Source of the DNA: Chloroflexota bacterium
Lineage (GTDB): Bacteria > Chloroflexota > UBA11872
NCBI GenBank assembly: GCA_028873795.1
Contig: JAPPNP010000076.1
Span: forward strand, 1-32,040
Direction of reading: 5' to 3'
DNA: 32,040 nt
Position 1 is the stretch's first letter. Each line of letters opens with the position of its first letter. Below the pieces are notes generated by a model. That model made no database searches and was not told where the DNA came from. It was given only the letters and a program-made list of their open reading frames with translations. The translations under genes were made by a program, and so were the position numbers. Below, one piece after another: positions 2,782-21,644 of this stretch.

Positions 2782-3534
2782 CTACGGGACTCTGCCAACG
2801 CTTCCGTACGGCGACCGCGAGGGCCGATTCGGCGTGGTGGTACTGGGACAGATGTCGTTGAGCGTGCACGCGTCGCATTGCGGCTGGCGCGCCTCGCAGA
2901 CGCGCCGCCCGTGAAAGATCACGCCGATGCCCGCGAAGATCCAGTCGTCGCGGGCGATCAGGTCCATCAGGTCGCGCTCGATCCGCACCGGCTCGTCGTG
3001 CTTGGTGAACCCCAGCCGCTGCGACAGTCGGGCGACGTGCGTGTCCACCACCACCCCGCTGGGAATGCCGAATGCCTCGCCCAGCACGACGTTGGCGGTC
3101 TTGCGGGCCACGCCGCGCAGCTTGAGCAGCGACTCCATGGTCGTCGGCACTTGGCCGTCGAACTCCTCGACGAGATGAGCGGCCGTCGCTCGAATCGACC
3201 TGGCCTTCTGCCGGTAGAACCCGGTGGGGTGCACGATGTCCTCGATGTCTTCCTGCCGCGCCGACGCCAGCGCCTCGGCCGTCGGATAGCGCGCAAATAG
3301 CGTTGGCGTCACCTTGTTGACCGCCACGTCGGTGGTCTGCGCCGACAGGATCACGGCGATCAAGAGTTGGAAGGGGTCGGTGTAGGTCAGTTCGGCCGCG
3401 GCCTCGGGGTAGAGTCCGCGAAGACGGCGGATGATTTCGGCCGTCCGCGCGCGGCGCGCCGCCTTTGACTCGCGCCAACTGCGCACCGGCGGTCCTGACC
3501 GCCGCCTCGAGACGTTGCCGCGACGCGCTGCCAT
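2782..3534 (-). CDS. nth: Endonuclease III (DNA glycosylase/AP lyase)
   Basis: This 250-aa base-excision-repair enzyme removes oxidised pyrimidines and cleaves the abasic site. The helix-hairpin-helix L-R-G-V-A-R-K-T-A-N-V-V (139-150) carries the catalytic Lys145, and V-D-T-H-V supplies the catalytic Asp164. The C-terminal iron-sulfur motif is complete: C213-x6-C220-x2-C223-x5-C229. The N-terminal 30 residues are an Arg-rich extension not present in E. coli Nth (211 aa). The start at 3534 is the first ATG of the conserved frame. The last 15 or so residues are low-complexity and the stop lies in the edge of a dispersed hairpin repeat, so the native C-terminus may have been altered by repeat insertion. 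It is monocistronic, flanked on both sides by repeats. Confidence 0.95.
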   Translation of the reverse strand: MAARRGNVSRRRSGPPVRSWRESKAARRARTAEIIRRLRGLYPEAAAELTYTDPFQLLIAVILSAQTTDVAVNKVTPTLFARYPTAEALASARQEDIEDIVHPTGFYRQKARSIRATAAHLVEEFDGQVPTTMESLLKLRGVARKTANVVLGEAFGIPSGVVVDTHVARLSQRLGFTKHDEPVRIERDLMDLIARDDWIFAGIGVIFHGRRVCEARQPQCDACTLNDICPSTTTPNRPSRSPYGSVGRVP

Positions 3535-3590
3535 TTGCGGAGCATATCGCGCACCCGGTGGCTCGGCTGATAGCCGGTCGCCTGACGTCC

Positions 3591-3640
3591 GTCATCTCCG
3601 CGAAGAGCCTGCCCCGTACTCGATACAGGGCGGGAATCCA
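3591..3640. repeat. Nested inverted-repeat element, third copy
   Basis: This is a third copy of the element at 2615-2720, with slightly degenerate outer and inner arms. The gap 3535-3799 between endonuclease III and the VanW gene otherwise shows nothing I can assign. Confidence 0.75.
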
Positions 3641-3799
3641 TTCTGAATCTTCAACCGGCACATCAAGGGCGTGGGCTGGCGTTTGGGCGCGGATAGAGCG
3701 TGTGGCGTCCCTCACAGATGGCCGTTGATATCATCGGGCAACCTTGACACTTGGTATGGCTGTAACTCACGGACGCGCGTCGCTTCTGGGCGATCGTCC

Positions 3800-5716
3800 A
3801 TGACGGCTGAGCACTCCGGCCAATCGCCGACGCGGCGCGCCCTGCTCCTGGCCGGTCTGGGAGTCGTCGGATTCGCGGCGGCCGCTCCCGTCGCCTTGGT
3901 CGCGGCCCTGTTGCGCGGCGATGACGGGATGTTGCCGGCGGGCATGCGGGTCGACGGCGTGGACGTGGGCGGGCTCTCGCCCGAGGAAGCCGTGGCGCGG
4001 CTCGACGCGCACTGGGGGCCCTATCTCGCGAACCCGGTGAGCTTCGAGCTTGGCGGCCGGATGTGGCATCCCTCGGCCGCCGACGTCGGCCTCACCGTGG
4101 ACTACCGAGCGGCCTTGCGGGGCGCAATCGCCGCGCAGGGCGGCGGCGGCATTACGCGTCGGATTTCCGAGCCACCGGCGTCAGTGGATCGCGCGCTGGT
4201 CGCCGCGAAATTCGACGCAAATGTGCTGCGCGGCTACGTGGCCGGCATTGCCCAGGGATTCGATCAGCCCGCCGTAGACGCCGGCGTGTCCCTGGCTGGA
4301 GCCGACACGGTGGCCGTGCGGCCCGGACAGACCGGTCGCGTGGTCGATGTCGAGGCGGCGGTGGGGGCCGTCGGTGATCTCACACAACCGGTATCGCCGC
4401 GTCCGGTGATTACGCTGACCTTCCGCGAGGACTTTCCGGCCTATACCACGGACGACGTGCGTGCCGCGCTCGACCAAATCACGCGCATGACCAGCGCGCC
4501 GCTGTGGCTGACGCACAAGAGTCGGGGATGGACCATCACCCCCGAGGAGCTGCGGGCTGCCATCAATGTCCAGGGGAACGACCAGCGATTGACCCCAACC
4601 CTTGACTTCACGCGTTTCAACGACCTGTTCACGCTCATCGACGACACCCTCGCCGCCGAGCCGCACCCAACGGTGTTCGACTACGACGAGGCGCGAAATC
4701 GCGTGCGGGCCTTCGAGGTGGGCAATCCCGGACAGATCGTGGATCGTGCCGCGCTCGAGCAGGCAATGGCGCAGGCGGTGGCCTCCCCCGATGACCGCGT
4801 GGTTGAAATCCCTCTCATCTTGCTCAACACGGGCGCCGACTTCGCCGAGAATCCGTTGGGAATTCGGGATCTGCTGGCCATCGGCGATTCGGTCTACAAG
4901 GGGTCCCCCGACTACCGCCTGCACAACATCTCGGTCGGCGCGAGGAAGCTCGACGGCCTCGTCGTGCCGGCCGGCGAGACGTTCTCGTTCCTCCAGAGCA
5001 TCGGGCCGTTCGAGCTGCGCCATGGCTGGGTCGAGGGCAGCGTCATCCTCGCCGACAAGACCGAACAGGGCATCGGCGGCGGCATCTGCCAGGTCTCGAC
5101 CACGCTCTTTCGCGCCGTGCTGAACGCTGGACTTCGCATTGAGGAGCGATGGCCTCACCTCTATCGGGTGCGCTACTACGAGATGGGTCCGGCGCCGATT
5201 GGCATTGACGCGACGATCTTTAGCCCCGGGCTCGACTTCAAGTTCCGCAACGACACCGAGCATCCCATCATGCTGCGGGCGCACGCCGACGAAGACATTG
5301 GCGCCCTGACATTCGAGGTCTGGGGCGTCAACGATGGTCGACGGGTCGAGATCGTGGACCACGAGCTCAAGGACTGGGAGGACCCGCCGCCGGATGAAGG
5401 CATTGTCGAGCCGACCGAGGATCCCGAGTTCGAGGAGCAGGTCGAGTGGGCCAAGCGGGGCGTGCTGGCGGCGTTCTCGCGGGTGATCACCTGGCCCGAC
5501 GGGAGCGAGACCAGATCGACCTTTCGCTCCAGCTTTGTTCCGTGGCCCAATCGCTACCTCGTCGGTATCGACGTGGCGAAGGCCAGGTTCCCGGCGCAAT
5601 ACACGGTGGGGTTCCCCTACACCCCCTTGGTGGCCGGGGGGGGGGGGGGGGCCGGGGCGCCCGCCCCGCCCCCCTTTCCGGCCGGGCGGGCGGTTTTGGC
5701 GGCGCACGGCCGCTAG
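3800..5716 (+). CDS. VanW-domain cell-envelope protein (YoaR-like)
   Basis: This is a 638-aa membrane-anchored protein. Residues 11-38 form an Arg-Arg-preceded hydrophobic segment, either a signal anchor or a Tat-like signal. Residues about 48-190 and 210-340 resemble the two putative peptidoglycan-binding (PG_binding_4/YoaR) domains; [10 protein letters not shown] at 51-60 is typical. Residues about 370-515 are the VanW domain with its signature [12 protein letters not shown] (426-437). VanW proteins are cell-wall-associated and occur beside some glycopeptide-resistance genes; their reaction is unknown. I chose ATG 3800 because the 43 codons upstream do not resemble a family N-terminus. The C-terminal 25 residues are translated from a 16-G run and GC-only sequence and may be an artefact. 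Confidence 0.88.
5636..5651 (+). repeat. Homopolymer of 16 G within the VanW gene
   Basis: Sixteen consecutive G residues are followed by about 45 bp of almost pure G/C. This encodes a Gly/Pro/Ala tail unlike the rest of the protein. It could be a slippage-prone tract or a sequencing/assembly artefact. Confidence 0.9.
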
Positions 5717-5757
5717 CCAAGCGGCCGCGCGCCCTTCTAGGATGGATGGGCGATTCA

Positions 5758-5834
5758 CGGGGCGTGGCGCAGCCTGGTAGCGCGCATCGTTTGGGACGAT
5801 GAGGTCGCGAGTTCGAATCTCGCCGCCCCGACCA
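5758..5834 (+). tRNA. tRNA-Pro (anticodon UGG)
   Basis: A full cloverleaf can be folded. The 7-bp acceptor stem pairs 5758-5764 with 5824-5830. The D stem is GCGC/GCGC (5767-5770 with 5780-5783). The anticodon stem is CATCG/CGATG (5785-5789 with 5797-5801) around the loop TTTGGGA, giving anticodon TGG at 5792-5794. The T arm contains GTTCGAATC. The discriminator is A5831 and CCA is encoded (5832-5834). It decodes CCN proline codons. It sits alone between the VanW and M14 genes. The 182 bp that follow (5835-6016) show nothing I can assign. Confidence 0.97.
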
Positions 5835-6016
5835 GCGGGCGGTGCCGACGCAGATGCTCTGGGGCAGGTGGAGTTGGCGCGCGGCGGCAGTGTCGTCCGG
5901 GCGCCGCTCCAGCGCTCAGGTTGCCGCGACAATGACGTGACGATGCGAATGACAATCGGGGCTGCAAGGTCCGCCGTCCGCCGGCATCCGGTGGCGCCGG
6001 CGTCGAGTCCGCCACC

Positions 6017-7045
6017 GTGCTAGCCGCCAGGCGGCCGCGGCGACCGGGCCGGCGCGTACTCCGGGCAACAGCGGTGATCCTGTGCACGGCGGGCCTGCTG
6101 GCAATGAGTGGCGCCTCCGTGAGCCTTGCCGCGCCGGGCGATCCTCCGCTGTTACCCGAGCGCCGCGCGGCGTCGGACGCCGCGCCGCCGGCCAAGAAGC
6201 CGACGCCCGAGCCAACCGAGCCGGCGACCGAGGTCGATGAAGCGCCCGACTCGGTCGGGAATTCCCGGGTGTTGACGCGCTCGGTCGAAGGGCGCGCCAT
6301 TCACGTCGTGGAAATTGGCCGCGGACCGCGTTGGATCGCGGTCATCGGCGGCATTCACCAGGGCAACGAAGCGAACACCACCGATCTCGTCGATCTGCTG
6401 CTCGAACACTTTCGCGAAAATCCCGACCTGGTCCCCAGCGGGGTTGGCCTGGCGCTGATTCCCAACCTCAACCCCGACGGGGCCGTGGCGGGCACGCGCG
6501 AAAACGCGAACGGGGTCGATCTCAATCGCAACTGGGACGCCGACTGGCAGCCCGACAGCTACGGTCCCTCGGGGCTGGTTGTCGGAGGAGGAGGCACGGA
6601 GCCATTCTCGGAGCCGGAGACCCGTGCCCTCGCCCGCTATCTGGTTGACCGACCGTTTCTCGCGGCGATCTTCTACCACAGCCGGGGTGGCCTGGTGGTG
6701 GCGGGTTATGGCGACGACGGCGGTTCGGCGGAGCTCGCGCGCGTGATCGCCCTAGCCGCGCAGTACCTCTATCTCACGGAATGGACGGCCTACCCCCTCA
6801 GCGGTCAGGCGACCGACTACCTCGCCAATCAAGGCATTCACGCGGTGGACGTGGAGCTGACCAACTACACCGATCCAGACTTCGCGCGCAACCTGGCGGG
6901 GCTGCGCGCGGCCCTGGCGTGGGCGCAGGAGCTCGATCCGCCCCCCGGCGCCCAGCGCGATGTTCCGGCGCAGATTGCCAATCGCTGCGGGTGCAAGCTG
7001 GGCGTGGACTGCGTGGGCTTGGGGCTGGCGCTGTGCCTGTGGTGA
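6017..7045 (+). CDS. Secreted M14-family zinc carboxypeptidase
   Basis: This 342-aa protein starts at GTG 6017. It has a basic N-terminus, a hydrophobic segment (about 17-38) ending in S-L-A-A, and a Pro/Glu/Thr-rich spacer, so it should be exported. The catalytic domain begins near residue 85. G-G-I-H-Q-G-N-E gives zinc ligands His114 and Glu118, F-Y-H-S gives His221, D-L-N-R-N-W (168-173) is the substrate-carboxylate motif, and Glu280 is the probable catalytic glutamate. Relatives trim peptidoglycan peptides or C-terminal residues. His and Glu are three residues apart rather than the common two, a variant spacing. The C-terminal 20 residues carry four cysteines (324, 326, 332, 340), which is unusual. 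It converges with the permease gene that ends 7 bp away. Confidence 0.88.
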   Translation: MLAARRPRRPGRRVLRATAVILCTAGLLAMSGASVSLAAPGDPPLLPERRAASDAAPPAKKPTPEPTEPATEVDEAPDSVGNSRVLTRSVEGRAIHVVEIGRGPRWIAVIGGIHQGNEANTTDLVDLLLEHFRENPDLVPSGVGLALIPNLNPDGAVAGTRENANGVDLNRNWDADWQPDSYGPSGLVVGGGGTEPFSEPETRALARYLVDRPFLAAIFYHSRGGLVVAGYGDDGGSAELARVIALAAQYLYLTEWTAYPLSGQATDYLANQGIHAVDVELTNYTDPDFARNLAGLRAALAWAQELDPPPGAQRDVPAQIANRCGCKLGVDCVGLGLALCLW

Positions 7046-7052
7046 CGACGAG

Positions 7053-7849
7053 CTAGGAGGTTCCCCAGGCCTCCGGCGTGCCAACCGACTGATATTTGCG
7101 AAGCGCAGCGTCACCAGCCCGCCCGCCATCATGGCCAGACCCACCGGGAGTCCGAGCACGCCCGGCATCAGGTACACGTCTGGTCGCAGGGCGAACGCCA
7201 CCGGATAAAACACCGTGAACGCGATCGGAATGGCGGTCAGCACGCCCCGCAGCGGCTGGCCCATGATGTCGATGGGATACCGCGAGTGATCCATGAACGA
7301 CGCGATGCCATGAAAGAACTGCCGCGAGCGCGTGAACCAGGCGCACGACAAGAACATGATGAGCCGCATGCCGGTCAGCACGAATACCGTGCACACCAGA
7401 GCCAGCAGCAGTAGGCCCGTCTGCGCCAGACTCTCAAAGATTCCGCTGTTCACTGCCGCCACGGCCGTGGTTGCGACGAAGGTGATGACGACCATGGCGT
7501 AACGCGGGTGCGCGGCGTCCAGGTTTGCCCACAGCACGATCGGGACGGGACGCACGCGGGCGTAGTCGAACTGGCCCGTGTAGAAGTAGGAGTCCACTTT
7601 GTTCGGAAACGCGAAGAGGAAGTTTCCGATCGCGTCCGCCAGCATGGCCATGCTCCACATGAGCATGACCTCCCATGCCGTCCACTGGCCAAGCTGCGGC
7701 GTCACGGCGAAGATCACGCCAATGAACGCCAGCCGCACGGCCCGATAGATCAGGTCGCCGATGACGGTGGCGATCGTGTCCGCGCGGTACTGCGCGAGTA
7801 CCTTGGGCAGGAGCCGAAATCCTTCGACATAGATCCGGGCCCAGCGCAT
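7053..7849 (-). CDS. ABC-2 permease, copy B1 (frameshifted near C-terminus)
   Basis: This membrane subunit of an ABC exporter belongs to the ABC2_membrane_6/DUF990 family, usually about 260 aa with six membrane segments. It starts at ATG 7849, two bases after the stop of permease A1. It aligns throughout with permease B2 (9873-10676) until L-R-F-A. There B1 lacks seven bases present in B2 (around 7097-7103), moving the conserved tail K-Y-Q-S-V-G-T-P-E-x-W-G-x-S and its TAG at 7053 out of frame. As sequenced, the frame runs on to 6752, giving about 365 aa and overlapping the M14 gene antisense by 294 bp. The coordinates given are the ancestral gene. It may still work, since only the last 17 residues are affected, or the deletion may be an assembly error. 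Confidence 0.82.
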
Positions 7850-12498: not shown

Positions 12499-13632
12499 AT
12501 GGTGTCCATTACCCCGAGCGTGCCGCAGCTGGAGCCGCTTCCCGAACGGAAAGTCACGGCCGTCCCGACCGTGCCGCAAGTGCCGGCGCTGACCGAAAGT
12601 CAGATCACCCAGTTCAAGCGCGATGGGTTTCTTGTGCTGCCGGGAGCCCTCGATCAGGAGCTTTGCCGCCGCGCGCGGGACGATATGTGGGAGGCGATCG
12701 GCACCTATCTCCCGCGGATGAAGCGCGGCGATCCGTCCACGTGGACGCCGATCACCGACGAGGAAAAGACCAACTTCCCGGTCGCCTATCACGGCGGGCA
12801 GCCCTATTTCGGCGGCGGCGGAACGCGGTACTACGTGCGCAACGGCACCAAGGACTTCATGCTCGACCTGGGTCCACGGGCGCTGTGGACCGTGGCGGAG
12901 CAGCTCCTGGGCAAGGGCACCGTGGTGTGGCCGGCCGGGCGCGACGAGACCGGAAGCACCAGCGGCCCCTGCCTGATGAGCGACGAGTCGATGGAGGTGC
13001 TGTACGGCCAAGACCTAGAAACCTGGCCCTCTCTGCCCACGTTCCAGACGCAAACCCTGCGCCTGCCGCAGCAGGGGATCGAGCTCCTCACCGGGCAGGG
13101 CACGCGCGGCCTCTACTGCACGCTGCCGAATAGCCCGGACCCAGGGCCCAACTGGCGCGGCGCGCATTCCGACGGCTCGTCCTACGGCCGCTTCCGGCTC
13201 AACTTCGCGGCCTACATTGACGACCTGCCGCCCGCTTCCGGCGGCTTCACCGTGTGGCCGGGCAGCCATACGCGGATCTGGGAGCACCACTGGAAGACGT
13301 TTCACGCCGGTGAAACACACGTTGGACGGCGCCACAACTCGCGCAAGCTGGGGGGCCACGAACGCATAGCCGATCCCATCGTCGAAGCGGTGAAGGCCGA
13401 CACGGAGGCGGTCGACACCTACGGCCCGACGGGTTCTGTGGTGCTGTGGCACCACAAGATCCTGCACGTGCCCGGCCAGAACACGTCCAACGACGTGATC
13501 CGCCAGGCCACGATCTATGGATACATGAAGTCGCCCGAAAGCCTCTCCGACGAGATGGCCATGACCGACGCGGGCGGCGACATCTGGCGCGACTGGTCGG
13601 ACGAGGTGCGCGCGATCGACGCGGGGGGCTGA
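12499..13632 (+). CDS. Phytanoyl-CoA dioxygenase (PhyH) family protein
   Basis: This 377-aa protein is a predicted Fe(II)/2-oxoglutarate-dependent oxygenase. The N-terminal family segment F-K-R-D-G-F-L-V-L-P-G-A-L lies at 39-51. The iron-binding triad is visible: H223-x-D225 in A-H-S-D-G, and His323 in I-L-H-V-P-G-Q-N, with Arg335 as the likely 2-oxoglutarate carboxylate ligand. S-G-G-F-T-V-W-P-G-S-H (247-257) is a typical core strand. It is longer than many bacterial members, with a large insert around 75-215. The family hydroxylates lipids, halogenated compounds and small metabolites; the substrate is unknown here. ATG 12499 follows an AAGGTGGGG purine stretch at suitable spacing. It has no obvious operon partner; repeats flank both sides. 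Confidence 0.9.
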   Translation: MVSITPSVPQLEPLPERKVTAVPTVPQVPALTESQITQFKRDGFLVLPGALDQELCRRARDDMWEAIGTYLPRMKRGDPSTWTPITDEEKTNFPVAYHGGQPYFGGGGTRYYVRNGTKDFMLDLGPRALWTVAEQLLGKGTVVWPAGRDETGSTSGPCLMSDESMEVLYGQDLETWPSLPTFQTQTLRLPQQGIELLTGQGTRGLYCTLPNSPDPGPNWRGAHSDGSSYGRFRLNFAAYIDDLPPASGGFTVWPGSHTRIWEHHWKTFHAGETHVGRRHNSRKLGGHERIADPIVEAVKADTEAVDTYGPTGSVVLWHHKILHVPGQNTSNDVIRQATIYGYMKSPESLSDEMAMTDAGGDIWRDWSDEVRAIDAGG

Positions 13633-15369: not shown

Positions 15370-16266
15370 TTAGGCGGTCTTTAGCAGCTGCCCGATCAGA
15401 AAGTCCGCGTAGGCCAGGGAGTCGGCGTCGATGGTGACGGTGGGGTTGCGCAGGGTGGGGTGCTGGAGGAGGCCACGGGCGGCGAGCAGGCGCTTTTCTA
15501 GGGCGTTGAAGAACTCCATGTCGGAGAGGCCGAAGGCCAGCCACGGCACGAGCGGCTCGAACGCGGCCAGCGCCTCCGCCGCGTGGCCGGCAACCGCCAG
15601 CCGCCACGCGGGCGCCAGCCGATCGGTGAGCGCGAGGCCGGGCATGATCCCGACGATGCCGGTGGGCACCAGCTCGAGCATGTAGAGCCCGCCCCAGCCC
15701 TCGAACACCTCCACGCGGCCCCCGGTGGCCTCGATGATGGCGCGCACCTTGGGACCCATGCGCGGCTCTTCCAGCTTGATGTAGCGAAAGTTCGGGCAGA
15801 CGTCGGCGAGCTTGGCGCAATAGTCGGCGCCGACGGAGCCGCCGCTCGGGTTCCAGTCCTGGATTAGCACCGGCGTCGCGACTGCATCGCAGACCGTGCG
15901 GGCGTAGTCGAACTGATCGTCGTCGGTCAGCGGAAACTGGCGCGGCAGCGCGAAGGAAATGACCTCCGCGCCGATGTCGGCGTTTTGGCGGGCGAGTTGG
16001 GCCGCGCCCAGGGCCGAGCCGTGGTTGCACTGCGCCATCACCGGCAGGCGGCCGCCGGCCTGGTCCACGGCGACCTCGACGACTTCGAGCCGCTCCGGCT
16101 CGGTGAGCTTGTAGAACTCGCTGCCGTAGGCCGGCAGGCAGATGGCGGCGGCCTCGGCGTCCACGGCAAAGTCGACCAGACCGCGAAGCGCCGCCGCGTC
16201 GATGGCCTCGTCACCGGGCGCGAACGGCGTCGGAACGATTGGCACGACGCCCGAGATTGATTTCAT
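15370..16266 (-). CDS. DapA/NanA-family class I lyase (dihydrodipicolinate synthase superfamily)
   Basis: The 298-aa (beta/alpha)8-barrel protein starts V-V-P-I-V-P-T-P-F, typical of the family. The Schiff-base lysine is Lys164 in R-Y-I-K-L-E-E-P, and G-I-V-G-I-M-P-G-L is the usual late-barrel strand. The active-site Tyr motif of true dihydrodipicolinate synthase (Y-N-x-P) is replaced by Q-D-W-N-P (136-140), so lysine biosynthesis is unlikely. Members with other residues here cleave or dehydrate sugar acids and related keto acids through a pyruvate imine. A sugar-acid aldolase or dehydratase is the best guess and would fit the rhamnonate-dehydratase-like gene at 21881. The start ATG is at 16266. 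The gene is isolated between the Nudix gene and a repeat-rich gap. Confidence 0.88.
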   Translation of the reverse strand: MKSISGVVPIVPTPFAPGDEAIDAAALRGLVDFAVDAEAAAICLPAYGSEFYKLTEPERLEVVEVAVDQAGGRLPVMAQCNHGSALGAAQLARQNADIGAEVISFALPRQFPLTDDDQFDYARTVCDAVATPVLIQDWNPSGGSVGADYCAKLADVCPNFRYIKLEEPRMGPKVRAIIEATGGRVEVFEGWGGLYMLELVPTGIVGIMPGLALTDRLAPAWRLAVAGHAAEALAAFEPLVPWLAFGLSDMEFFNALEKRLLAARGLLQHPTLRNPTVTIDADSLAYADFLIGQLLKTA

Positions 16267-16284: not shown

Positions 16285-16545
16285 GGATCAAGTCCGCGGC
16301 AGGCTCTATCCCTCTCCCACGGTGGGGAGAGGGGACGTTCCAGCCGTCGCGGTCGCGCGTCGCAAGTCCGTGTAGGGGCAGCCCTCGTGGCTGCCCTGAG
16401 TCATTCCCGCGACGGCGGGCATCTAGTGGCCCCTGAACCTGCTCAGCCGGGAGTAGGGGCGGTTCGCGAACCGCCCCTACGCTTAGCGGCAAGCGTGTTT
16501 CCAGATTCGACGGCACTGGATTCCGGCTTGCGCCGGAATGACGAG
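16285..16545. repeat. Repeat-filled gene-free region
   Basis: The gap 16267-16594 has no gene I can support. It holds at least four repeat types in series: 16285-16335 with a 9-bp stem CCCTCTCCC/GGGAGAGGG, related to 31874-31914; 16371-16396, the hairpin half of the composite repeat; 16453-16480, a perfect 28-bp palindrome of the GTAGGGGCGG... type; and 16520-16539, a short ATTCCGGC/GCCGGAAT inverted repeat. The region looks like a landing site for nested small elements. Confidence 0.75.
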
Positions 16546-16594: not shown

Positions 16595-16789
16595 CTAACT
16601 ATCCCCGCCGCCCTGGGCGGCTGTCGGTTGCCCGTAGCGCGGATACCAGTAGGTCCGGTAGATGCGGAAGCACTTGTCGCTGCACACGATGACCGGCTTG
16701 CCCTCGTGCTCCTTCACCATCTCCTGCACTGGAATCAAGATGCCGCAGCTCGCACAGCGCGGCATTTCGTCGACTTCACGTTGCGGCAT
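16595..16789 (-). CDS. Small four-cysteine (zinc-ribbon/TRASH-like) protein coupled to HyuB
   Basis: This 64-aa protein has the pattern C-A-S-C followed about 20 residues later by C-S-D-K-C, that is C-x2-C...C-x3-C, typical of a small Zn or other metal site, then an aromatic-rich segment (R-I-Y-R-T-Y-W-Y-P-R-Y). ATG 16789 lies 14 bp inside the end of the HyuB-type gene and is preceded by GGGGAG at 7-bp spacing, so the two are translationally coupled. An internal ATG at 16765 is possible. No enzyme motif is visible. Its position suggests a third subunit or metal-delivery partner of the HyuA/HyuB complex. A free-standing metal sensor is an alternative. Confidence 0.75.
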   Translation of the reverse strand: MPQREVDEMPRCASCGILIPVQEMVKEHEGKPVIVCSDKCFRIYRTYWYPRYGQPTAAQGGGDS

Positions 16790-18578
16790 GCGCCATCTCC
16801 CCTCGCTTGCGGCGCGTCGCGTCGGCATCAATCGCGCCCGCGTCGTCCAGCACCACCCCATAGGTCCGCTCGGCTGCTTGCGCGTCGATCAATTCGTCGG
16901 CCACGTCCTGGCGCACCAGCTCGGGTTGTCGCTCGTGGGGAGCGCCGTAGCCGCCCCCACCGGGCGTGCAGAGCATGATCAGGTCACCCTCTTCGAGCTC
17001 GACGTTCGAGAATTTGCCCGCCGAAATGCGGTCATACAGGTCCTTGGCCGAGAGCCAGCGGTCGGAACCGGACGGCTTGAACAGCAGCGCCGCGTTCCCG
17101 GCGGGATCGCCGCCCTTGAGGCCCCAGGGCCTGAACCAGGTGCGGTTCACGTGCGCGCTGATGGTGATCGGCGCCAGGCAGCGCCAGATGCGCCGCACGC
17201 CGAATCCGCCGCGGTGGGCGCCCGGCCCGGTGCTCTCGGGAATGACGCTGTACTCCTCGATGCGCACCGGATAGCGGACCTCGATCACCTCGCAGGGCGA
17301 GTTCAGGCAGTTGCCGTTCTTGGTCACCATCGCGTCGTTGCCATCGGCGTCGATGCGTCCACCGCAGCCCATGCCCTCGATGTGCAACAGGACGAACGGC
17401 TCGCCGGTATCGGTGTTGGTGCCGTAGATGCCGAGCAGGCCGCTCGTACCGCCGTCGCAGGCCTGGCTGCGGTCGCTCATCTGCGAGAAGGCGGCGAAGA
17501 GCACGTCCATGGTGTTGGGATAGGTGTCGGAGTTGCCGCCCACGCACGATCCGGGGTAGTTGACGTTCACCACAGTGCCCGGCGGCGCCACGATGGCGAT
17601 GGGCCGATAGGCGCCGTGATTCCACGGGATGTCGTCGGGAATCATGTGGAAGATCGTGGCGTAGGTCGCGGATGCGGTCGTGCCAAATGACTGGTTGATC
17701 GCCCCGGCCGATTGGGGATCGGACCCGGTGTAGTCCACCACGATCTCGTCGCCGCGCACGTTGACTTCCGCCGCGAAGCGGTAGGACGTGTCGGGCAGCA
17801 CGCCGTCGTCTTCGATGATCCCTTCCGCCGCATAGGCGCCGTCGGGCATGCGCGCGATGGCCTGCCGCATCATGACCTCGGATACGTCCTTGATCTGCTC
17901 CGACAGCAGGTTGAAACGGTCGATGCCCAGGCGGTCGATGAGGTCCACGATGCGGCGCTCGGCCAGGTAGGTCGATCCCACCATCGCCATCAGGTCGCCG
18001 CGCGACACCTTGGGCGTGCGCACGTTGGACGTGATGATGGCGAAGATGTCTTCCACCGGCTCGTCGTTCTTGTAGATCTTGATCGGGGGCAGCCGCAGAC
18101 CTTCCTGGAAGATGTTGCGCGTGTCGCCGAAGGCCGCCGGCACCATGCCGCCGATGTCGGTCATGTGCGCAATGTTCGCCGCATAGGCCACGACCTCATC
18201 GTTGTAGAAGCAGGGCTTGAGGGTCATGAACTCCGGCATGTGGCAGCCGCCGCGATAGGGATCGTTGTGCAGGATCACGTCACCCGGATGCATGTTTTCC
18301 GGGCCGACCTCCTTGATGGCCCACTCGACGGTGTGCACGATCGCGCCGATGTGCGCCGGGCAGAAATCGCCCTGGGCGATCATCTGGCCGGCGGCGTCGA
18401 ACACCACGCAGGAGAAGTCGCGCGCCTCGTTGAACATGGTCGAGTAGGACGTGCGCAGCATGGCCGCGCCCATCTCCTCGCAGGTGCCGATCAGGTAGTT
18501 ACGCGTGACCTCGAGCTGGACCGGGTCGTCGATGTTGAGGTCGGCGACGCTGCGCTTGGCGGATGTGTCCTGCACCAT
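16776..18578 (-). CDS. HyuB-type hydantoinase B/oxoprolinase family subunit
   Basis: This 600-aa protein is the partner subunit of HyuA-type ATPases. Together such proteins hydrolyse cyclic amides (hydantoins, 5-oxoproline) or carboxylate ketones. Conserved family blocks are N-D-P-Y-R-G-G-C-H (105-113), H-M-T-D-I-G-G (138-144), the central V-N-V-N-Y-P-G-S-C-V-G-G segment, and the C-terminal G-P-G-A-H-R-G-G-F-G and G-G-G-G-Y-G. Full length is preserved. The ATG at 18578 follows the HyuA stop by one base (TGA-G-ATG), with a GGAGGTGGAG purine site inside the HyuA end, so translation is coupled. Its 3' end overlaps the small cysteine protein. The substrate is not deducible; the upstream peptide-type transporter genes suggest an imported amide-like compound. 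Confidence 0.92.
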   Translation of the reverse strand: MVQDTSAKRSVADLNIDDPVQLEVTRNYLIGTCEEMGAAMLRTSYSTMFNEARDFSCVVFDAAGQMIAQGDFCPAHIGAIVHTVEWAIKEVGPENMHPGDVILHNDPYRGGCHMPEFMTLKPCFYNDEVVAYAANIAHMTDIGGMVPAAFGDTRNIFQEGLRLPPIKIYKNDEPVEDIFAIITSNVRTPKVSRGDLMAMVGSTYLAERRIVDLIDRLGIDRFNLLSEQIKDVSEVMMRQAIARMPDGAYAAEGIIEDDGVLPDTSYRFAAEVNVRGDEIVVDYTGSDPQSAGAINQSFGTTASATYATIFHMIPDDIPWNHGAYRPIAIVAPPGTVVNVNYPGSCVGGNSDTYPNTMDVLFAAFSQMSDRSQACDGGTSGLLGIYGTNTDTGEPFVLLHIEGMGCGGRIDADGNDAMVTKNGNCLNSPCEVIEVRYPVRIEEYSVIPESTGPGAHRGGFGVRRIWRCLAPITISAHVNRTWFRPWGLKGGDPAGNAALLFKPSGSDRWLSAKDLYDRISAGKFSNVELEEGDLIMLCTPGGGGYGAPHERQPELVRQDVADELIDAQAAERTYGVVLDDAGAIDADATRRKRGEMAHAAT

Positions 18579-18579
18579 C

Positions 18580-20604
18580 TCACTCCACCTCCAGAATCAC
18601 GCTGCCCTGCGGCTCGACCCGAGCCGACCAGTCGGGCGGCACGATGGCCGTGGCGTCGTCTTCCACGATCATCGCCGGACCGGTGAAGGTGTTGCCGGCC
18701 CGCAGGTCGTCGCGGTGATAGAAGGGCGTGGACAGCAGGCCATCCGCTTCGGTGAAGTAGACCTCGCCCACCTTGACCGGCGCCGGCATGGGGCCGGGCG
18801 GGACATCGGGTAGGAGGACCTCCCGACGCCGGGCAATGGCCGTCAGGCGCATGTTGACGATTTCGAATGCCGACTCGGGGAAGCTCCAGCCGAACTGGCG
18901 ATCGTGCTCAGCGTCGAAGGCCTTGCGGGCGGCGGCGATGTCTTCGGCGGCGATAGTTCCGCCGGCGACCGGGACTTCGAGCTCCCAGTTCTGCCCGTAG
19001 TAGCGCAGGTCCAGACTGCGCTGCATGGCCGGCGGATCGCCGAAGCCCTCGCGCGCGAAGTCGTCGCGGGCGCGCTGCTCCAGATCGTCGAAATCGCTCT
19101 GCACGGTCTCGACGTCGATGTTGTCGGAGTAGGTGATGCGCGTTTGCATGTAGTCGAACCTGGTGTCGGCCATCAGCGCGCCCAGGGCGCTGAACGCGCC
19201 GGGGAAGGGCGGCACCACGACGCGCTGCATTCCGAGATGATCGGCCAGGTAGGCGCCGTGAAGCGGGCCCGCGCCGCCGAAGGCGACGAGGGCGAACTCG
19301 CGCGGGTCGATGCCCTGGTCGATGGTGAGCAGGCGCATGGTCTCGGCCATGTTGCTGTTCATGATCTCGAGGATGCCCGCTGCGGCGCGCTCCGCCGTGA
19401 ACCCCAGTTGTGAGCCAATGCGCTCGACCGCCGTCCGCGCGGCCTCCGGCACCAACTGCACGTCGCCGCCGAGCTTGAATGCGGGATCGAGTCGGCCCAG
19501 CACCACGTTGGCGTCGGTCGACGTCGGCTCGGCGCCGCCGCGGCCATAGCTCGCCGGTCCGGGATCGGCGCCCGCGCTTTGCGGGCCGACCTTGAGCAGG
19601 CCGGCTGCATCGAGCCAGGCGATGCTGCCGCCGCCGGCGCCGATGGAGCGGATGTCCAGCATGGGCGTGGCGATGGGGATGCCGAACTCGAGCTCGGTGG
19701 TCGTGGTTTGCGCCGCACGGCCGCCGGCCACCAGGCAGGCGTCGAAGCTGGTGCCCCCAATGTCGGCGGTCATCAGCGGGTCGAGTCCCAGGTCTTGCCC
19801 CAGCTGCAGGCTGCCGATTACGCCGCCCGCCGGACCGCTCTGAATCATGGTGACGGGCTGGGCCTTGGCGGTCTGCGTCGCCATGACGCCGCCGTTGCTG
19901 CGCATGATCAGCAGACCGCGTGCGCCTCGGCGGTCCAGCTCCTCTTCGAGCGAGGTCAGATATTCGTCGATGCGCGGCTTGAGGTAAGCGTCGATCACCG
20001 TGGTGCTCGTGCGCTCAAACTCGCGCCACTGCGGGAACACGTCCGAGCTGATCGAGACGTAGGCCTCGGGGTACAGCTCGCGCACGATTTCCCGGGTGCG
20101 GCGTTCGTGTTCGGGGTTCAGGAACGAAAAGAGATAGCTGACGGCGATGGCCTTGACTTCCTCCGCGCGCAGGCGCTCCACTGCGGCCACGACGTCTTCT
20201 TCCTCCAGCGCCTGCACCACCTCGCCGTGCGCGCCGATCCGCTCGCGAACCTCCAGGCTGAGCGCGCGATCCACCAGGTGGCGCGGCTTGCGCCAGTGCA
20301 GGTCGAACGACTCCGGGCGCACGATGCGCTGGATGCGCAGCACGTCCCGAAATCCCTGCGTGGTGATGAGCCCGATGCGCGGTCCGCGGCGCTCGATGAG
20401 CATGTTGGTGCCGACGGTGGTGCCGTGCACGAAGTACTCGATGGCCGCCGGGTCGATCTCGGCTTTCGCCAGGGCGTCGAAGATTCCCTGCGATGGCGAG
20501 GCGGGTGTCGTGAGCGACTTCGCGACCTGCAATCCGGTGTCGCCATCGGTGGCGATCAAGTCCGTGAACGTGCCGCCCATGTCGACCGCGACGTTATGTG
20601 GCAC
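18580..20604 (-). CDS. HyuA-type hydantoinase A/N-methylhydantoinase family ATPase subunit
   Basis: This 674-aa protein has the ASKHA (actin-like) ATPase fold. Phosphate-binding loop 1, D-M-G-G-T-F-T-D, is at 8-15; loop 2, D-I-G-G-T-S-F-D, at 281-288; and the adenosine motif F-G-G-A-G-P-L-H at 442-449. Residues 58-66 (F-V-H-G-T-T-V-G-T) and 256-261 (S-G-P-A-G-G) are further family signatures. It would use ATP to activate the substrate (a cyclic amide or ketone) for the HyuB subunit. The start is GTG 20604 with GGAG 7 bases upstream; the nearby ATG at 20608 is out of frame. It follows the DppB-type permease by 89 bp, with a hairpin in between, so linkage is likely but transcription may be attenuated. 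Confidence 0.93.
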   Translation of the reverse strand: MPHNVAVDMGGTFTDLIATDGDTGLQVAKSLTTPASPSQGIFDALAKAEIDPAAIEYFVHGTTVGTNMLIERRGPRIGLITTQGFRDVLRIQRIVRPESFDLHWRKPRHLVDRALSLEVRERIGAHGEVVQALEEEDVVAAVERLRAEEVKAIAVSYLFSFLNPEHERRTREIVRELYPEAYVSISSDVFPQWREFERTSTTVIDAYLKPRIDEYLTSLEEELDRRGARGLLIMRSNGGVMATQTAKAQPVTMIQSGPAGGVIGSLQLGQDLGLDPLMTADIGGTSFDACLVAGGRAAQTTTTELEFGIPIATPMLDIRSIGAGGGSIAWLDAAGLLKVGPQSAGADPGPASYGRGGAEPTSTDANVVLGRLDPAFKLGGDVQLVPEAARTAVERIGSQLGFTAERAAAGILEIMNSNMAETMRLLTIDQGIDPREFALVAFGGAGPLHGAYLADHLGMQRVVVPPFPGAFSALGALMADTRFDYMQTRITYSDNIDVETVQSDFDDLEQRARDDFAREGFGDPPAMQRSLDLRYYGQNWELEVPVAGGTIAAEDIAAARKAFDAEHDRQFGWSFPESAFEIVNMRLTAIARRREVLLPDVPPGPMPAPVKVGEVYFTEADGLLSTPFYHRDDLRAGNTFTGPAMIVEDDATAIVPPDWSARVEPQGSVILEVE

Positions 20605-20693: not shown

Positions 20694-21644
20694 TCAGGTG
20701 AGCCGGACGCGCGGGTCGATGTACGTATAGAGCACATCGACGAGGAGATTCGCTATCACGTAGATCGTCGCCGCCAGCATCACCAGGGCCTGAACCACGG
20801 TGTAGTCACGCGTGAGGATGGCCTTGACCAGCGTGAAGCCAATGCCCTTGCGGCTGAACACCACCTCGATGACCACCGCGCCGATCAGCAGGCTGCCGAA
20901 CTGCAAGCCCACGATCGTCACGACGGGGATCAGGGCGTTCTTGAGGGCGTGGCCCCAGACGACGGTGCTCTCGCGCACGCCTTTCGAGCGCGCGGTGCGG
21001 ATGTAGTCGCGGCTCATCACGTCGAGCATGGACGACCGGGTGAGCCGGGCCACGATCGCCGCGCCTCCAATTCCCAGGGCGAGCGCGGGCATGATGAGCT
21101 CCTTGCCGTTGCCGTTGGCAATGGCCGGCAGGAAGTTGTTCATATTGATGGCGAAGATGTAGATCAGGAGCAATCCGATGAGGAAATTGGGAACGGAGAC
21201 CCCCAGCACCGCGATGAATTGGCTTGTGTAGTCCACCCAGGTGTGGTGCCGCATGGCCGAAATCACGCCGGCAACCAGGCCAATGAAGAGTGTCACCGCC
21301 ATGCCGGCCAGCGTGAGCAGCAACGTCGAGGGGAATTGCTCCGCGATCACGTCCGTGATGGGCTGCTTGGTGCGGAACGAGCGCCCAAGGTCGAGCCGCA
21401 GCACGTCCCAGATGTAGTAGACAAACTGCTCGGGAATTGACTTGTCGAGGTGCAGCTTCGCCTTCGCTTGCTCGAGGGCCTCGATCGAAACGGATGTGTT
21501 GGACGTGCCGCCCGCGTCGCTGCTGTAGTAGAAGACTGTGACGGGATCCCCAGGGATAAGGCGCAGGAGGACGAACACCAGCAGCAGAACGCCCAGAATC
21601 ACTGGGATCGCGGCGAGCAACCGCCGGACGATATATCGCCCCAT
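20694..21644 (-). CDS. Peptide-type ABC importer permease, DppB/OppB family
   Basis: This 316-aa inner-membrane subunit of a family 5 (dipeptide/oligopeptide/nickel type) importer begins with R-Y-I-V-R-R-L-L-A-A-I-P and a first membrane helix, followed by a periplasmic loop with I-P-G-D-P and a further run of five membrane segments. The ATPase-coupling EAA-like loop is D-Y-I-R-T-A-R-S-K-G-V with the downstream H-A-L-K-N-A-L-I-P (about 221-246). AGGAG lies 10 bases before ATG 21644. The matching DppC-type permease and binding proteins lie 2.5-7.7 kb away on the same strand, separated by two plus-strand genes. No ATPase subunits are in the window. HyuA/HyuB follow, suggesting the imported solute feeds that enzyme. 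Confidence 0.92.
   Translation of the reverse strand: MGRYIVRRLLAAIPVILGVLLLVFVLLRLIPGDPVTVFYYSSDAGGTSNTSVSIEALEQAKAKLHLDKSIPEQFVYYIWDVLRLDLGRSFRTKQPITDVIAEQFPSTLLLTLAGMAVTLFIGLVAGVISAMRHHTWVDYTSQFIAVLGVSVPNFLIGLLLIYIFAINMNNFLPAIANGNGKELIMPALALGIGGAAIVARLTRSSMLDVMSRDYIRTARSKGVRESTVVWGHALKNALIPVVTIVGLQFGSLLIGAVVIEVVFSRKGIGFTLVKAILTRDYTVVQALVMLAATIYVIANLLVDVLYTYIDPRVRLT

Follow-up and report, generated by a model that had tools for sequence, protein, structure and literature searches.

The stretch of DNA analysed here (32,040 nucleotides of a Chloroflexota genome, referred to as the window) carries hyuA, hyuB and a gene for a small cysteine-containing protein as a coupled trio on the minus strand. 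These genes, their predicted metal ligands and their immediate neighbours are as follows, where A1 and A2 are alignments of the small protein, which we refer to as the finger.

20694..21644, minus strand: oligopeptide/dipeptide-type ABC permease, directly upstream of hyuA (Pfam BPD_transp_1)
18580..20604, minus strand: hyuA, ATP-binding (ASKHA) subunit, 674 aa, GTG start (Pfam Hydant_A_N, Hydantoinase_A, Hydant_A_C)
16776..18578, minus strand: hyuB, metal-site subunit, 600 aa (Pfam Hydantoinase_B)
18417-18419, minus strand: HyuB Asp54, predicted metal ligand (alignment to CapB)
18240-18242, minus strand: HyuB His113, predicted metal ligand (alignment to CapB)
18231..18233, minus strand: HyuB Glu116, third ligand of the predicted metal tetrad, equivalent to Asp102 of CapB (alignment to CapB)
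18165-18167, minus strand: HyuB His138, predicted metal ligand (alignment to CapB)
16595..16789, minus strand: 64-aa finger gene, proposed third subunit (ORF, conservation, dN/dS, AF2, Foldseek)
16754..16756, minus strand: finger Cys12, knuckle, first ligand of CxxC (invariant column in A1/A2)
16745..16747, minus strand: finger Cys15, second ligand of CxxC (invariant column in A1/A2)
16682..16684, minus strand: finger Cys36, first ligand of CxxxC, before the helix (invariant column in A1/A2)
16670..16672, minus strand: finger Cys40, second ligand of CxxxC (His in some family-f76 homologues)
15370..16266, minus strand: dihydrodipicolinate-synthase-family gene downstream of the finger gene, putative operon member (Pfam DHDPS)

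HyuA (Hydantoinase_A family domains, E 1.6e-92) and HyuB (Hydantoinase_B, E 1.6e-162) are full-length members of their Pfam families. The stop codon of hyuA and the ATG of hyuB are separated by the single base 18579, and the ATG of the finger ORF sits 14 nt within hyuB, with a Shine-Dalgarno-like stretch (GAGGGGAG) upstream. A sequence-only reading of this DNA had described the one-base gap, the start inside hyuB and a 64-aa protein with C-x2-C and C-x3-C motifs, all of which were confirmed, the cysteines having the pattern C12-x2-C15 ... C36-x3-C40. The ABC permease gene and hyuA are probably on one transcript. Other neighbours of the trio in the window are oligopeptide ABC genes and genes of the enolase, aldo/keto reductase and PhyH families. 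Phytanoyl-CoA-dioxygenase-family genes are found near the hyuAB operon in two families (12499-13632 of the window and 3903-4811 of L086), and a GC-rich, repeat-like palindromic element (ggggcggttcgcgaaccgcccc) lies downstream of the operon at 16455-16480.

HyuA contains all three ATP motifs of the hydantoinase/oxoprolinase (Hyd) enzymes (i.e., DxGGTxxD, DxGGT and GxxPGP), with phosphate motifs at D8-MGGTFTD and D281-IGGT and an adenosine motif at G345-ADPGP, interpreted according to the description of caprolactamase (PMC8453981). The solved structures closest to HyuB are those of N-methylhydantoinase (7hk5) and caprolactamase CapB (6yra), with E of 1.9e-76 and 5.4e-86. In CapB, the metal is bound by Asp41, His99, Asp102 and His124 (PMC8453981). 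The aligned residues of the window HyuB depart from the Asp-His-Asp-His tetrad of Hyd enzymes, as the predicted third ligand is Glu. Acetone carboxylase has Glu at another ligand (Glu89, first position) (PMC8453981), and the 7hk5 N-methylhydantoinase, when aligned to CapB, has Gln for His at the fourth (D-H-D-Q).

The 64-aa protein matched no family above a curated Pfam or NCBIfam cut-off, with a best Pfam score of 16 bits against a cut-off of 25.8. The small ORF is nevertheless a real gene under strong purifying selection, beyond what chance would give, because dN between the window and its congeners was 0-0.035 over codons 6-54 as opposed to a dS of 0.24-0.45. The ORF and its position were also retained in 5/5 congeners and, within the same order, in another family. 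In the AF2 model (10-row alignment, pLDDT 78), a CxxC knuckle is followed by a beta-hairpin (E25-28/E31-34) and a helix (H38-53) with the CxxxC at its start, the arrangement of a treble clef. The top Foldseek matches of this model were eL24 and the TRASH domain of ZMYM5 (2das), none with E below 0.001, and a profile search of PDB sequences returned the same fold class. Since the model, Foldseek and the profile search agree, the finger is a treble clef of the TRASH/eL24-like type, and its four cysteines are predicted to bind zinc.

Linkage of the small gene to hyuAB only here, which the sequence-only reading had named as grounds for rejecting its proposal, is clearly contradicted. We surveyed 121 relatives and, in a second step, 400 genomes of the phylum, in which all but one of the small-protein matches were directly 3' of or within a HyuB gene; the match in G344 was a YHS-like domain located elsewhere and was rejected as outside the finger family. 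In the window's class, every Zn-domain match was after or inside HyuB, and in a second Chloroflexota class 11/11 HyuBs of the finger subfamily had the domain. In the window genus and g4, the finger has an ORF of its own that overlaps hyuB, and in g6, g11 and G263 this ORF lies up to about 80 nt from hyuB. In genus g2, and at a second hyuAB locus in the genome of the window, the finger instead extends the C-terminus of HyuB, which then measures 709-713 aa. Once, in G006, HyuA, HyuB and the finger form one ORF of 1491 aa. The domain is not exclusive to HyuB. In G447 it follows an M20 peptidase, with no HyuB within the 12 kb read (finger at about 3420-3690 and peptidase at 2048-3379 of L162, G447:C29, with acetamidase/formamidase and amidohydrolase genes nearby), and the finger may thus serve other amide hydrolases as well.

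Outside Chloroflexota, the sampling consisted of plasmids, and we located the alphaproteobacterial fingers by inspecting the genes around the best HyuB matches on them; tblastn of plasmids with the Chloroflexota fingers gave chance matches only (Aminobacter, Rhizobium SSA_523). The small gene follows hyuB in Shinella and Sulfitobacter, lies between hyuA and hyuB in Rhizobium leguminosarum, precedes hyuA in the haloarchaeon Halalkalicoccus jeotgali and is within the hyuAB cluster in Methylobacterium, while in Agrobacterium vitis the finger is fused to the N-terminus of HyuB. Where annotated at all, these fingers are listed as hypothetical proteins or hidden in HyuB. When the Shinella finger was used in tblastn of plasmids, 19/19 matches fell in hyuAB gene clusters, and 18 of these adjoined, or were part of, a HyuB or HyuA gene. 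A scan of viral contigs for the finger found nothing. Profile comparison of the Chloroflexota fingers with the others (hhalign) gave 92.8% probability, restricted to the finger core. Treble clefs are much alike, and common descent of the Chloroflexota and alphaproteobacterial/archaeal fingers is likely, not proven. Thus, linkage to hyuAB extends to two Chloroflexota classes, alphaproteobacterial plasmids and a haloarchaeon, and the earlier proposal of a small cysteine protein that goes with HyuAB, probably as a zinc-type third subunit, is supported by this linkage and by the fusions.

A maximum-likelihood tree of 71 HyuB sequences, including CapB and N-methylhydantoinase, was obtained by a quick search with no bootstrap and has long deep branches between the subfamilies. 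All finger-associated HyuBs were in one clade of 36 (SH-aLRT 100), which comprises members from the two Chloroflexota classes, the alphaproteobacterial plasmids and the haloarchaeon. The finger was present with 33/36 HyuBs of the clade and 0/35 outside it, and by alignment to CapB the D-H-E-H tetrad was found in 36/36 clade members and Asp at the third position in 35/35 of the others. The Glu is therefore best regarded as a diagnostic signature of the clade in these alignments. The traits specific to the clade all map to a single ancestral branch, so that none can count as independent support for another, and the tetrad change is no proof of a functional tie to the finger.

The three finger-less HyuBs represent two lineages, a paralogue 75% identical to the window HyuB (two genomes) and G020:C4, and are orphans with no adjoining hyuA. 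All 33 finger-bearing members have hyuA directly upstream (the hyuA match of R. leguminosarum RCAM0626 is in pieces), and every complete hyuAB pair of the clade examined had a small finger gene or a fusion. The finger is thus retained with complete HyuAB pairs and lost along with hyuA, in two independent losses, which points to a function in the assembled enzyme with its two sites and not with HyuB alone. The orphan paralogue (12780-14582 of L135, G005:C10; same in G000:C36) shares its cluster with HyuA and a HyuB-finger fusion (3431-7565) and with RraA-like and 2-hydroxyacid dehydrogenase genes, and it may use the HyuA of that cluster.

We consider it probable that the 64-aa protein serves as a third subunit, small and structural, in an ATP-dependent HyuAB hydrolase of the hydantoinase/oxoprolinase/lactamase type. 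In such an enzyme, HyuA would spend ATP on activating the amide carbonyl of its cyclic substrate, and the activated intermediate would move to the metal site of HyuB for ring opening. The zinc-stapled treble clef would dock on HyuB and help hold the working HyuA-HyuB assembly, by analogy with the unrelated gamma subunit that wraps the HyuB counterpart in ketone carboxylases, and it would mark the HyuB subfamily with an Asp-His-Glu-His instead of an Asp-His-Asp-His tetrad. The AF2 model of a natural HyuB-finger fusion (6-row alignment) was of low confidence (pLDDT 49) and uninformative on docking. More tentatively, HyuAB enzymes that combine the finger with the Asp-to-Glu change may form a distinct, uncharacterised class in bacteria and archaea. 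Enzymes of this class would be ATP-dependent, consist of three subunits and have a chemistry or metal of their own, and their third subunit would be required to couple the ATP site to the distant metal site; we regard this broader proposal as possible rather than probable.

The fold similarity to eL24 and TRASH could also suggest a regulatory or DNA/RNA-binding protein that is merely co-transcribed. One finger gene adjoins a GntR gene, another is the one beside the M20 peptidase, and linkage alone could stem from a regulator rather than a subunit. A co-transcribed regulator is unlikely, given that the finger is fused to either end of HyuB, is lost together with hyuA and goes with a single HyuB clade that spans two domains of life.

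The sequence-only reading had raised the possibility of a carboxylase-like complex, i.e., a minimal ATP-dependent carboxylase of the acetone/acetophenone type with a shrunken gamma subunit. The acetone and acetophenone carboxylases (Acx/Apc) do pair HyuA- and HyuB-like subunits with a small Zn subunit that has four Cys and wraps the HyuB counterpart (PMC5214803, PMC5543143), and caprolactamase also requires bicarbonate (PMC8453981). The true gamma domain, PF08882, is moreover a separate protein or a C-terminal fusion to HyuB in other Chloroflexota, which is a parallel architecture. Carboxylase gamma belongs to PF08882, and its site is Yippee-like (PMC5543143). Homology of the finger to it was ruled out, as hhalign gave a probability of 3.9% and PF08882 had no match in the genome, nor in the relatives of its class searched. 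HyuA and HyuB score best against caprolactamase/N-methylhydantoinase and not Apc/Acx, HyuB being far closer to CapB and N-methylhydantoinase than to ApcD or AcxA; scores against the Apc equivalogs were 330 bits for ApcC and 123 for ApcD, with cut-offs of 1500 for both, and both proteins were also far below the CapA/CapB equivalog cut-offs. The neighbouring genes point the same way. In Shinella and Sulfitobacter, genes for 4-aminobutyrate transaminase and succinate-semialdehyde dehydrogenase lie beside the finger hyuAB, the Agrobacterium vitis and Methylobacterium clusters have other aminotransferases, and a class III aminotransferase-like reading frame is a further neighbour. Aminotransferase neighbours would fit an amino-acid product freed from a cyclic amide, and gene context therefore favours cyclic-amide hydrolysis over carboxylation. 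The neighbours at the window locus and at the second hyuAB locus, which as read in a congener are 2-hydroxyacid dehydrogenases, an RraA-type aldolase and a GFO/IDH/MocA oxidoreductase, name no substrate. Taken together, a shrunken carboxylase appears improbable. Separately, C-terminal fusions of PF08882 were observed in the HyuBs of L184, L185, L187 and L188, and the acetone-carboxylase gamma at 1336-1851 of L180 (G187:C1) apparently lacks its Zn cysteines (SRSGYEF, DPLDGT).

The coincidence of the finger clade with the altered tetrad could instead be explained by a metal chaperone or insertion factor for the D-H-E-H site that is no permanent subunit, a possibility raised in the sequence-only reading. 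A homologue in L159 (G487:C25:17700-17879; FCTTSGRM...FATPED) has lost three of the four Zn ligands and is still encoded directly after hyuB, and in some homologues of family f76 C-x3-H replaces C-x3-C. Because the ligand-less homologue keeps its place, the zinc of the finger fits a structural role better than one in delivery or catalysis. A four-Cys treble-clef site is normally structural. The Zn of carboxylase gamma was also judged structural (PMC5214803). With the frequent, permanent fusions to HyuB added, a chaperone is disfavoured and we give it little likelihood. Finally, that the finger is a neutral, hitch-hiking small ORF without a role, as its small size and overlap with hyuB might suggest, is barely credible and already contradicted by a dN far below dS and by the fact that two Chloroflexota classes, Alphaproteobacteria and Halobacteria have all kept it.

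Hyd enzymes have been described as two gene products only, with the gamma subunit absent from any Hyd complex (PMC5214803). Given the finger in every complete pair of the clade examined, this two-gene description appears incomplete for the clade. A search of the open-access literature for zinc fingers or third subunits in hydantoinases returned nothing beyond the carboxylase and caprolactamase papers, an absence that is weak evidence. If a third subunit is indeed present, expression or assay of HyuAB alone would miss a part of these enzymes, a part now annotated as hypothetical or unannotated. The combination of H-x2-E in HyuB and a finger provides a simple signature for finding and annotating the clade, and with finger-HyuAB in three phyla of bacteria and archaea the observation in the window is more general than could be seen locally.

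Among known systems, the TRASH, MYM-FCS and eL24 fingers share the C-x2-C ... FCS-x2-C spacing and the hairpin followed by a helix, but the window domain scores below every curated Pfam/NCBIfam cut-off and is tied to a metabolic enzyme. The PP0621 family (NF041023) has weak similarity over the finger, at 22 bits far below its cut-off of 45, and likely shares the fold only. Caprolactamase CapAB resembles the window enzyme in the ATP motifs of HyuA, the fold of HyuB and the two adjacent genes for catalytic subunits, but it consists of two subunits only and its CapB tetrad is D-H-D-H as opposed to D-H-E-H. Like the finger, the small four-Cys subunit of AcxABC/Apc is encoded beside HyuB and is fused to it in some Chloroflexota, whereas gamma is a 15-20 kDa PF08882 protein with different Cys spacing and a Yippee-like fold, to which the finger is not homologous. 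Two unrelated small Zn folds thus appear to have been placed on the same HyuB scaffold, and a second, independent small Zn subunit would make the unexplained role of gamma in the ketone carboxylases testable by comparison.
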